DNA from: an uncultured Flavobacteriales bacterium
Lineage (GTDB): Bacteria > Bacteroidota > Bacteroidia > Flavobacteriales > BACL11
DNA length: 64,000 nt
Direction of reading: 5' to 3'
Assembly (NCBI GenBank): GCA_905478765.1
Contig: CAJQJY010000001.1
Coordinates: 1 to 64,000 of the forward strand
In this document: positions 34,723 to 38,288 of the stretch, in pieces
Layout: each line of letters opens with the position of its first letter
How positions within the stretch are numbered: the first letter of the stretch is position 1
Translations under genes and position numbers: made by a program
The notes under the pieces: generated by a model
The model's input: the letters and a program-made list of their open reading frames with translations, nothing else
Told to the model about the DNA's origin: nothing
Database searches by the model: none

Positions 34723-36924
34723 CTAAAATCCTAAAGTAAGTCCTAAAAGATAATTTCTTGTTGCTTCAGGAAAATAACCAGCAGAATTGTAGCCTCTTTC
34801 GCTATCAGCATTTACATAATGATCGTATTCTCTAGGGTCATAACCATCAGAAACAAAACGATACACCCAAGCATTGCTTACATATTCGTTATCTAATAAG
34901 TTGTTTACTTGTAATGTAAGTTTTGCAGTTTTAAATATTTTACTTTCCCATTTATATGCTAATCTTAAATTATTTACTAAGTAATCATCTAATTTTCTAT
35001 CATCAGAAGAAGTGTTATCAATAAATTGCTCACCAACATATTTGCTTATAAAATCAATACTGATATTTTTATCTATTTTATAATTGAAAATTGAAGCCCA
35101 AATAGCTGTTGGAGAAAAAGCTAAATCAGTATTTTCATAATCTATTTTTTCTTGGCCTCCAGTATCCCAATTGTCAATATATTCAGTATGGCTAATTATT
35201 TTGTTTTCTGATAGCGTCATGTTTCCTGCCCAAGTCATTTTTTCAGACAACTTGTATTTAGCTTCAATCTCAATTCCTTTTCTGTACGACTCATCAATAT
35301 TTGCTCTTCTATTAGCTCCTACATCATTAATCTGTCCAGTAAGGACTAACTGGTTTATATATTTCATCTGGTAAAGATTTACACCTAATGAAAATTTCTC
35401 TCCACTTTGTTTGTACCCAACTTCAGTATCGTAAAGTGTTTCATGTGATGGATATTCATCAGCTTTATTTTCTACATAATCATTTCTGTTCGGTTCTTTA
35501 TTGGCTACTGCAAATGACACATAAATGGATTGACTCTGATTTAAATCATGAAAAAGCCCGACTTTTGGATTGAAAAAAGCATGAGATACTTCTTGTTCGG
35601 ATGGCACCCCATTTCTATCATATCCTTCAAATATATAATCTACCCTTCTTCTTTGTAAATCTAAATAAAGGTTAGTGGCATCAGAATATTTATAATTTGT
35701 TTTTGCATAAAAGTTATGATCTAATTTTTTAGCTTTGTTCCAATAATACTGATGATTGATTGCTCCATTACTTGCGTACTCAGCCCAGATAATATTGCCG
35801 TAATGTTGCCCAGAATAACTATTGCTGGCACCCCCTAAAACTAAATCAAGCTTACCCATTTGATGATTAAGAGAATAAGTAAATCCTCCAAAATCATTAT
35901 TTAACCATTTCCTTCTGATAAGGTTAGTTGAAGAAATAGTATCATCAGATAAAATGATATTTTCCAGACCATAATCTACAAATTCTTCTCCAATTTTTTC
36001 TTGCTCATAATATCCTTCACCATGCGTAAAATGTGCAGCAATATTTACAGTGGTTTCTTTGCTTAATTGCTTGTTGTAATGCAATTGATAATGTGTTTGC
36101 TCATAATTATCAACTTCATTTTTGTAAGTGTAAGAGTTGTAGGTCCTATTTGAGTCTAAATAATTTAAAGGAACACCATTCCAAGCTTGATAAGTGCGTT
36201 CATGTCCCGTAAAAACCAATGCTTTTATAACTGATTTTTTCCCAAAATATGTTGCTTGGAGGTAAAGAGATTTTAAGTTAGAAGTTGCTCTATCTATATA
36301 ACCATCCGATGAAATTTTAGACACACGCCCATCAAAAGTAAACTTGTTATTAATAAGTCCAGTACCAAACTCTACATTGTTTTTTAAAGTAGAAAAACTC
36401 CCCATAGTATTGTTTGTAAGGAAGTAAGCGTTTTTGTTTAATCCGTCAGTTTTTAGGTTTACTGATGCCCCAAAAGCAGAAGCTCCATTAGTTGAAGTCC
36501 CTACACCTCTTTGAATTTGAATGTTCTCAATTGAAGATGAGAAATCGGGCATATTTACCCACCAAACTCCTTGGCTCTCAGAATCATTTAATGGAATTCC
36601 ATTAACTGTAACATTTATTCTTGTTGGGTCAGAACCTCTTACTCTAAAGCCAGTATAACCCACTCCAGCTCCTGCATCAGAAGTAGTAACTACTGAGGGA
36701 GTAAGTGAAATGATATAAGGTAAATCCTGTCCCAGATTTCCTTTTTCAATTTCTGATTTACTGATGTTTGTAAACGCTATTGGAGTTTTTTCAGTTGCTC
36801 TAAGCGCATTTACATTTACATCATTTAACACCTTTTGCATTAAAATAGTGTCATTTGGCTGTTGTGCAAAACCAATAAATGGTAGAGCAAGCAGAGCAGC
36901 CATGCAGTTTTTTTTGTTATACAT
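34723..36924 (-). CDS. TonB-dependent outer-membrane receptor under TPP riboswitch control (probable thiamine receptor)
   Basis: 733 residues: signal peptide ending IGFAQ, a plug domain (DLPYIISLTPSVV, GYTGFRVRGSDPTRINVTVNGIPLND, IQIQRGVGTSTNGASAFGAS), and a 22-strand barrel with the terminal domain LTLQVNNLLDNEYVSN. The last strand ends LLGLTLGF. It has no carboxypeptidase-like N-terminal extension, so it is a vitamin/siderophore-type receptor, not a SusC. The TPP riboswitch directly upstream and the PnuC-type transporter two genes upstream indicate uptake of thiamine or a thiamine precursor. A terminator at 34657-34685 ends the unit. Confidence 0.9.
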   Translation of the reverse strand: MYNKKNCMAALLALPFIGFAQQPNDTILMQKVLNDVNVNALRATEKTPIAFTNISKSEIEKGNLGQDLPYIISLTPSVVTTSDAGAGVGYTGFRVRGSDPTRINVTVNGIPLNDSESQGVWWVNMPDFSSSIENIQIQRGVGTSTNGASAFGASVNLKTDGLNKNAYFLTNNTMGSFSTLKNNVEFGTGLINNKFTFDGRVSKISSDGYIDRATSNLKSLYLQATYFGKKSVIKALVFTGHERTYQAWNGVPLNYLDSNRTYNSYTYKNEVDNYEQTHYQLHYNKQLSKETTVNIAAHFTHGEGYYEQEKIGEEFVDYGLENIILSDDTISSTNLIRRKWLNNDFGGFTYSLNHQMGKLDLVLGGASNSYSGQHYGNIIWAEYASNGAINHQYYWNKAKKLDHNFYAKTNYKYSDATNLYLDLQRRRVDYIFEGYDRNGVPSEQEVSHAFFNPKVGLFHDLNQSQSIYVSFAVANKEPNRNDYVENKADEYPSHETLYDTEVGYKQSGEKFSLGVNLYQMKYINQLVLTGQINDVGANRRANIDESYRKGIEIEAKYKLSEKMTWAGNMTLSENKIISHTEYIDNWDTGGQEKIDYENTDLAFSPTAIWASIFNYKIDKNISIDFISKYVGEQFIDNTSSDDRKLDDYLVNNLRLAYKWESKIFKTAKLTLQVNNLLDNEYVSNAWVYRFVSDGYDPREYDHYVNADSERGYNSAGYFPEATRNYLLGLTLGF

Positions 36925-36989
36925 TTTAATTATTTTTTGTTAACATTAGCAGATAAAATAGGGTTATTATCTGTTCTATTTAATGTTGA

Positions 36990-37072
36990 CTCATTTTCCT
37001 ATGATGAATTACCACCTCAGGTTCAATGGGTGTAATCTCAGCCTTTCGGCACCCCTTTTAAGATGGGGTAAA
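36990..37072 (-). promoter_or_regulatory. TPP (THI-box) riboswitch
   Basis: Minus-strand RNA carries all conserved THI-box blocks in order: GGGGTGCC (37048-37055), CTGAGAT (37035-37041), ACACCC (37028-37033), GAACCTGA (37017-37024), GGTAAT (37008-37013) and CATAGGA (36997-37003). The receptor ATG lies about 70 bases downstream. It binds thiamine pyrophosphate and should switch the receptor off when TPP is plentiful. I see no T-tract terminator after it, so control of translation start is more likely than termination. Confidence 0.93.
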
Positions 37073-37096
37073 AGTATGAAAAAAGTTTATAGTTGA

Positions 37097-37603
37097 CTAA
37101 AAATTAGTTGCTAGACTTTCAATTGCCTGCTCATTTCTATCCTCACCTTTAATTATTAAAAATTTGTGTCCTAAGTTTTCTAGTTCTTGTTTGTAGATTT
37201 CAAGAAGTTCATTTCTGTTTGTAGGGTTTTCTCTTAATGTGTCGTAATCCCATTTTAAGTCTGGCTTACATAAAAGATAAAATCTATTCTCAACTTTTTG
37301 TTTTTCAATTTGCTCTAAAATCCAATTGTTGCAGTTACCATATTTATAGTCGCTCCATATTTTAAGGGTTATAAGATCAGTATCATGTAGAGAAATTTGT
37401 TGATTGTTAGTAATAAGTTGCTCGTTTTCCAATTGCCCTTTAGCAATTTCTAATAAATCTTCTTGTAAGTAATTTTTGCCTAAATCAGTTAGATATTCTC
37501 TTGCAAACTCTTTTGTAAAAGGAAGGTTGTAATGTTTAGAAAGGGCTATGCAAAGAGTTGTTTTCCCACTACTTTCAGGACCTGTAACTATAATTTTAAG
37601 CAT
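37097..37603 (-). CDS. NadR-type P-loop kinase, candidate vitamin (thiamine or nicotinamide riboside) kinase
   Basis: A 168-residue single-domain protein like the C-terminal ribosylnicotinamide kinase part of NadR (AAA_28 type). It has P-loop GPESSGKTT at residues 8-16, then FTKEFAREYL, a DTD segment in LHDTDLITLKIW, and YLLCKPDLKWDYDTLRENP. It overlaps the PnuC-type transporter gene by 8 bp, and the TPP riboswitch follows 25 bases after its stop. PnuC plus NadR kinase elsewhere means nicotinamide riboside salvage; the riboswitch beside it instead points to thiamine. Trapping the imported vitamin by phosphorylation fits either case. Confidence 0.85.
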   Translation of the reverse strand: MLKIIVTGPESSGKTTLCIALSKHYNLPFTKEFAREYLTDLGKNYLQEDLLEIAKGQLENEQLITNNQQISLHDTDLITLKIWSDYKYGNCNNWILEQIEKQKVENRFYLLCKPDLKWDYDTLRENPTNRNELLEIYKQELENLGHKFLIIKGEDRNEQAIESLATNF

Positions 37604-38192
37604 CAGAAGTAGTTTGTTTTAGCCAGGCAAAATACCCAAACACAGCAATAATAGTGTAAGCGATAAAAAGGAGAGAGGTAAGGTGTAAATCCCTGCTGAA
37701 ATACAAATAAATTGAAACGGCATCAATCACAATCCAATAAAGCCAATTAGAAAGCACTTTTTTGGTAACCATAAAAGTTGCGATAATTGAAAATACTGTA
37801 GTAAATGAATCAACAATTGGCATTTTTGCACTTGTATAAGTGGCAAAATAAAAGCCCATTAAAAAAGTAAAAATTGCACCTGTCAAAATAAGTATTAAAT
37901 GTTTCCCTATTGTCCATTGGGCTATTTCTATTTTTCCATCATTTTTATTCCATTGATAATAACCATAAAAAGCCATCAACAAATAATAAATTTGCAAACC
38001 AGTTTCAGGATATAATTGTGCAGTAAAACAAATGTAAATATAAAGAATTACACTAATTGCAGCTGCACTCCAACACCAGATGTTTTGCTTTGCAGCCAAT
38101 ACTACATAAAGGACAGAAAGAACTACTGCTATAGTTTCAATAATACTCCAATTGAAATCTACGCTGCTAAAAAATAAAATTATTTCATTCAT
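37596..38192 (-). CDS. PnuC/PnuT-family vitamin transporter
   Basis: 198 residues from ATG at 38192 (MNEIILFF). The longer frame to 38255 runs through the promoter, so it is rejected. About seven membrane helices fill the protein, with PnuC features WCWSAAAISVILYIYI, YGYYQW, and a final FGYFAWLK. PnuC proteins import nicotinamide riboside by facilitated diffusion, and PnuT variants import thiamine. The adjacent riboswitch-controlled TonB receptor favours thiamine. Overlap with the kinase gene shows translational coupling. Confidence 0.88.
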   Translation of the reverse strand: MNEIILFFSSVDFNWSIIETIAVVLSVLYVVLAAKQNIWCWSAAAISVILYIYICFTAQLYPETGLQIYYLLMAFYGYYQWNKNDGKIEIAQWTIGKHLILILTGAIFTFLMGFYFATYTSAKMPIVDSFTTVFSIIATFMVTKKVLSNWLYWIVIDAVSIYLYFSRDLHLTSLLFIAYTIIAVFGYFAWLKQTTSDA

Positions 38193-38203
38193 ATTAAATG
38201 AGT

Positions 38204-38232
38204 CAAAAATACGAATTTGCATAAGTTTGCAA
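38204..38232 (-). promoter_or_regulatory. Promoter of the pnuC-kinase pair
   Basis: Minus strand TTG (38230-38232), an 18-bp spacer, then TATTTTTG (38204-38211). It ends 11 bases before the ATG at 38192. No riboswitch lies between it and the gene. Confidence 0.55.
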
Positions 38233-38288
38233 GCGAAAAGAGAGTTTTTAGTCAACAGTCACTAGTTTTAAAATAAATTTAAATCAAA

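Follow-up and report, generated by a model that had tools for sequence, protein, structure and literature searches.

The DNA analysed here, a 64,000-nucleotide window from an uncultured Flavobacteriales bacterium of the BACL11 lineage (assembly GCA_905478765.1, contig CAJQJY010000001.1), carries in the region 34723-38232 three genes and a thiamine pyrophosphate (TPP) riboswitch aptamer, which together form a putative thiamine (vitamin B1) salvage locus. According to the open reading frame (ORF) list and profile searches, all four lie on the minus strand and follow one another in the direction of transcription as a pnuC-like ORF, a kinase gene, the aptamer and a TonB receptor gene. The PnuC-family permease (37596-38192) has 198 amino acids when read from the likely ATG at 38192, the longest ORF being 38255-37596 with a TTG start at 38255. 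The NadR-type P-loop kinase (37097-37603) has 168 amino acids and begins at an ATG inside the end of the permease gene, the two reading frames sharing 8 nt, while the aptamer occupies 36979-37066 and the TonB-dependent receptor, of 733 amino acids, 34723-36924. The initial annotation, made by inspection of the sequence, had described a THI-box directly ahead of a TonB receptor and a PnuC-type permease overlapping a small NadR-type kinase on the same strand, and profile matches bear out both descriptions (RF00059 at full length; PF04973 and PF13521). It had also placed the permease and kinase behind the riboswitch; the strand is indeed shared, but the pair lies 5' (upstream) of the riboswitch and not downstream.

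The aptamer, a THI element, scores 39.5 bits against Rfam RF00059, with the model covered from end to end (E 2e-5, searching 4 kb). It is missing from a default Rfam scan of the window, in which the curated cut-off is applied, because its score is below that cut-off of 54.3 bits. The cut-off appears strict for the Flavobacteriales group, since RF00059 is matched in 95 of 118 genomes of the order yet reaches the curated value in just 37. The conserved aptamer cores, CTGAGA and ACCC..TGAACCTGA, are present, and compensatory changes preserve a stem across 23 aligned relatives, in up to 12 of the 23 sequences at one pair. Since the covariance model R1 derives from 23 aptamers of the set, its scores on those aptamers, including that of the window, are inflated by construction. 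The element is the sole convincing one of its kind in the source genome, the runner-up candidate scoring 16.4 bits.

Some 55 nt separate the aptamer from the start of the receptor gene downstream, and a two-armed hairpin in this interval (36939-36990, minus strand) is a possible expression platform within a leader whose overall folding z is -2.4. The Bacteroidota -7 promoter element has the form TAnnTTTG. A perfect copy, TATTTTTG, stands ahead of the permease gene (38204-38211, minus strand), and sequence inspection finds an imperfect -7-like box, TACTTTTA, immediately upstream of the aptamer (37069-37076, minus strand); of 34 aptamers examined, 26 are preceded at no more than 35 nt by a full TAnnTTTG, that of the window being among the eight that are not. 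Because the permease has its own perfect box and the aptamer lies 3' of the pair, receptor and permease-kinase look like two transcription units with the riboswitch ahead of the receptor alone. Riboswitch control of the permease-kinase pair in the source genome was rejected on the same ground of position, and it is the receptor on which the riboswitch would act. Divergent from the permease and upstream of it, on the plus strand, is a gene for a ChaN-like haem-binding family protein (PF04187; 38289-39149).

Elsewhere, weak TPP matches (24-27 bits with model R1) stand directly ahead of PnuC in four other loci, L048, L227, L231 and L240. In these the TPP-led PnuC is followed by an acyl-CoA-dehydrogenase/HsaA-like gene (L227:3998-5731; L231:4550-6294), perhaps reflecting a B1-related oxidation or salvage step. 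A pattern match called as a TPP element in locus L056 came from a loose pattern and disappeared with the covariance model.

The receptor carries a TonB plug domain (PF07715, 45 bits), and of 69 aptamers examined, 60 are followed within 400 nt by the start of a receptor of the same family. A TonB receptor with a TPP riboswitch ahead of it is the arrangement that characterises Omr1/OMthi, and the window protein shows it; an outer-membrane thiamine receptor of that kind is proposed. In genome G059 a second TPP element (L050:4566-5414) precedes an ORF of 239 aa that contains a TonB plug domain and apparently encodes a receptor in truncated or broken form. The permease is the single PnuC-family protein detected in the source genome, matching PF04973 (184 bits), TIGR01528 (90 bits, above its cut-off) and, with a PnuC fold, the PnuC structure 4qtn (E 3e-10). 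In a tree of 73 of 101 PnuC sequences, the rest having been dropped mostly as close repeats, it groups weakly with TPP-led PnuC proteins, apart from E. coli PnuC and NadR-linked PnuC (Shimodaira-Hasegawa-like approximate likelihood ratio test, SH-aLRT, 83). A role as a PnuT-type thiamine facilitator is proposed for the permease.

The kinase matches PF13521 at 97 bits and PF13238 weakly, with no other Pfam match, so that P-loop kinase families are hit throughout; the catalytic domain of thiamine pyrophosphokinase (TPK), PF04263, gives no match. From TIGR01526 the kinase part alone is matched (70 bits against a cut-off of 341), the N-terminal nicotinamide mononucleotide (NMN) adenylyltransferase domain of that profile being absent. 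An AlphaFold model of the protein (predicted local distance difference test, pLDDT, 95) finds its best structural counterparts in NadR kinase domains (6gyf; Z 21.5 over 166 residues, root-mean-square deviation 1.9; Foldseek E 3e-9), and thymidylate and deoxynucleoside kinases come next. The predicted fold is that of a ribosylnicotinamide kinase, and as such it does not decide between nicotinamide riboside (NR) and thiamine as substrate; that the structure listing holds no thiamine kinase carries no evidential weight. Closeness to NadR in both sequence and fold speaks for a rival explanation, that the pair performs ordinary NR uptake and conversion of NR to NMN and merely adjoins a TPP-led thiamine receptor. 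The missing adenylyltransferase domain speaks against it. In a tree of 113 kinase domains, linkage to a TPP element changes 20 times, against a mean of 38 for shuffled labels, and the NadR domains of E. coli and of genomes G105 and G113 form one branch (97/94) apart from the window kinase, with long-branch warnings. A residue signature for thiamine specificity (Q57 and A34, from a comparison of 56 TPP-linked kinases with three NadR kinase domains) was discarded because both residues are also found in L. lactis NadR.

Several variants of the kinase gene and its surroundings were observed. A DUF4301 domain (PF14134) and the kinase form one fusion protein in L034 (2769-4889), and in further loci of Flavobacteriaceae type (L035:3465-5006, L079, L095, L222) the domain is encoded beside the kinase or close by. 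Fusion to a 4'-phosphopantetheinyl transferase domain occurs in two genomes of family f7 (L045:1482-2687, L046:1232-2461), and PcrB-like and phosphopantetheinyl transferase genes also neighbour the kinase locus elsewhere. The gene after the kinase in Hymenobacteraceae is aldose-1-epimerase-like (L054:6497-7408, L057:6538-7416, L066:6611-7537), and the two are fused in L055 (6001-7440).

The gene content of the source genome (1,608,600 bases in 20 contigs, 98.6% complete) gives the kinase its likely place. Profile searches of this genome found no TPK, ThiC or ThiE, ThiC and TPK being among the genes whose absence had been suggested as a check on a thiamine role, together with one ThiL (302 bits) and one NadR-type kinase of the window kind. 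As ThiL needs thiamine monophosphate (TMP) and neither TPK nor ThiE is found, TMP must come either from a thiamine kinase or from import. In the proposed pathway, thiamine would enter through the TonB receptor, whose mRNA leader is the TPP riboswitch, and cross the inner membrane through the PnuT-type facilitator. Phosphorylation by the small NadR-type kinase, in the role of thiamine kinase, would trap it as TMP, ThiL, encoded elsewhere in the genome, would convert TMP to TPP, and TPP would then shut down expression of the receptor. We hold with good confidence that this is a thiamine salvage locus and its kinase a thiamine kinase, the substrates of receptor, permease and kinase being read from sequence and context. 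The initial suggestion of a thiamine substrate and a NadR-related thiamine kinase is thus the best supported, given the absence of TPK, ThiC and ThiE, the presence of ThiL and a conserved neighbourhood; it is partly borne out, the riboswitch not leading the pair in this genome.

NR salvage is a serious rival because NadA and NAPRT/NAMPT were likewise not found in the source genome. An NR-only kinase would, however, leave this genome with no enzyme to convert thiamine to TMP, and a deamido route to NAD is likely in the source lineage, leading from quinolinate, perhaps of kynurenine-pathway origin, through nicotinate mononucleotide (NaMN) and nicotinate adenine dinucleotide (NaAD). This route is indicated by NadE in the source genome itself (L186; TIGR00552, 180 bits; 67% identical to NadE of G031, in a cluster conserved with that genome), by NadC in a congeneric genome, G010 (neighbouring an rlmH match; E 3e-44 against E. 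coli NadC, with 35% identity across 282 aa) and by NadD in G031, of the sister genus (TIGR00482, 167 bits). Neither NadC nor NadD turned up in the 852,213 bases of the source genome that were examined as stretches, and NadC is also absent from the site suggested by synteny with G010. Two candidates were set aside along the way: a first NadE candidate is GuaA, and an RlmH candidate is not RlmH.

The wider occurrence of these genes was surveyed in the 118 genomes, one draw of the order Flavobacteriales, and all associations are raw genome counts in which relatedness is ignored. The kinase is present in 72 genomes, TPK in 50, ThiL over its cut-off in 95, ThiC in 26 and a TPP element in 95, while the PnuC family occurs in 114, NadA above its cut-off in 40 (of 43 with a match), ThiE at about 80 bits or more in 34 (of 61 with any match) and NAPRT in 54. 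Where both TPK and ThiE are missing, a combination referred to here as the TMP gap, 57 of 59 genomes have the kinase. Among the 68 genomes without TPK, 63 carry the kinase and three carry ThiE, the other two being a 300-kb genome and a 340-contig assembly; ThiL is over its cut-off in 60 of the 63 with kinase and no TPK. The pattern holds when the NAD genes are taken into account: of the 68 genomes with NadA or NAPRT, 14 have the TMP gap and every one of these carries the kinase, as against 10 of the 54 in which there is no gap. The kinase is associated with both the TMP gap and the NadA/NAPRT gap, and the TMP association rests on more genomes.

Neighbourhoods of the kinase gene point the same way. 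Across the 118 genomes, 57 of the 72 kinases have a TPP element at a distance of at most 10 kb and 34 at a distance of at most 1 kb, and 54 are within 300 bp of PnuC. Fifteen kinases, including that of G064 at the edge of its contig, have a TPP element within 10 kb while PnuC is not adjacent, so the kinase remains beside the TPP-led receptor even when PnuC is encoded elsewhere, and the grouping of kinase, TPP element and receptor is conserved from family to family. This persistence, together with the finding that none of 40 NadA genes lies within 10 kb of the kinase, is a further argument against a pair devoted to NR. No TPP element occurs within 10 kb of any of the 31 TPK genes examined, a count that omits the 19 TPKs of family f15, for which no TPP element is listed. 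In a wider contig collection, 16 of 51 kinase loci are flanked by a TPP element above 46 bits; all 16 are from Bacteroidota, and they include Hymenobacteraceae, Saprospiraceae and Flavobacteriaceae. It is fairly likely that, in many Bacteroidota auxotrophic for thiamine, the small-genome families around the window among them, a previously unrecognised NadR-fold thiamine kinase and ThiL together replace TPK.

A number of observations weigh against assigning thiamine to the kinase. The riboswitch of the source genome does not lead the permease-kinase pair, residue signatures fail to separate the window kinase from NR kinases, and the PnuC tree backs the split from E. coli PnuC weakly at the SH-aLRT value of 83. 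Nine of the 50 genomes with TPK also carry the kinase, all of them in one genus, g10 of family f3; the one of these domain-scanned by Pfam has the kinase-DUF4301 fusion of L034. The kinase is found in 48 of the 50 genomes that lack both NadA and NAPRT. Where the TMP gap is absent (59 genomes), all five genomes lacking NadA and NAPRT have it, as against 10 of the 54 others; one of these five, G105, has a separate two-domain NadR. No TPP element occurs within 10 kb of 15 of the 72 kinases (14 once a model R1 match in G061, L036, is counted), and 35 of the 51 loci in the wider collection have no flanking TPP element as strong as 46 bits, among them loci of Chitinophagaceae, Bacteroidales, Pseudomonas and Sphingomonas. 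Part of the wider kinase family may therefore serve another substrate. A kinase standing apart from TPP elements and linked to NAD genes had been named beforehand as evidence against a thiamine role, and it is partly seen here, in the 15 kinases distant from a TPP element and in the way the kinase follows the absence of NadA and NAPRT. NR salvage at the window locus is weakened by the evidence as a whole, and we regard it as unlikely.

That the kinase follows both gaps would also be expected if its specificity were dual or broad, covering thiamine and NR, with the pair serving both vitamins; the fold, shared with NR and deoxynucleoside kinases, is compatible with such breadth. Genomes G105 and G113, by contrast, have a two-domain NadR (331 and 348 aa) with its own PnuC on a different contig from the kinase-TPP locus, which suggests a division of labour and makes dual specificity rather improbable. 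In G105 the stretch L206:2812-6000 is likely a complete NR uptake island, with a TonB receptor, PnuC and the two-domain NadR, and no TPP element was found in it. TonB receptors can carry phosphorylated ligands, and a third alternative is that TMP or TPP is imported as such, ThiL alone being needed to form TPP (and sufficing for imported TMP) while the kinase has some other substrate. PnuC-type facilitators, however, carry unphosphorylated vitamins and depend on trapping by phosphorylation, and such import would leave the association of the kinase with the TMP gap unexplained; we consider it highly improbable.

The thiamine kinase reading matters since many of the sampled Bacteroidota lack thiamine synthesis and TPK but have ThiL, which leaves thiamine phosphorylation as a gap. 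If it is correct, a NadR-fold thiamine kinase would fill this gap and alter predictions of vitamin dependency. Current models annotate such genes as an NR transporter and a NadR-like protein or AAA ATPase, and a broad set of these "NR transporter plus NadR-like" gene pairs would have to be re-annotated as B1 rather than B3 salvage.

Among known systems, the NadR kinase domain with PnuC (PDB 6gyf, 8x7f, 1lw7) resembles the window pair in the fold of the whole kinase (Z 21.5) and in the pairing with a PnuC-family permease. The window kinase differs in lacking the adenylyltransferase domain, in its TPP-riboswitch neighbourhood, in a presence that follows the TMP gap and in its separate tree branch. 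The thiamine kinase of E. coli, ThiK (YcfN), carries out the reaction proposed here, thiamine to TMP followed by ThiL. Its fold is aminoglycoside-phosphotransferase-like, whereas all family matches of the window kinase are to P-loop kinases. No NadR-type thiamine kinase is described in the titles and abstracts of the literature searched, and the portions consulted of PMC6593275, PMC3766115 and PMC7221760 hold no mention of one. The thiamine locus of Bacteroides, OMthi-pnuT-tnr3 in the relevant excerpt of PMC5613172, shares with the window a TPP riboswitch, a TonB receptor, a PnuC-family permease and a thiamine-phosphorylating enzyme (putative in the window) adjoining the permease. There the enzyme is Tnr3, a TPK that reaches TPP in a single step (PMC5613172), where the window has the putative NadR-type thiamine kinase; in the source genome TPK is missing, ThiL is needed and the riboswitch leads the receptor only. 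For Bacteroidetes, omr1 and pnuC are described as dominant in B1 expression (PMC12442306, in part). A further parallel comes from metagenome-assembled genomes of Flavobacteriales and Cytophagales, for which ThiL with omr1 is reported as salvage in excerpts of PMC12236431: the higher taxa are the same, ThiL and a TonB-type thiamine receptor are shared and key synthesis enzymes are missing. Those excerpts name no enzyme for the step from thiamine to TMP, and the window kinase is a candidate for it.

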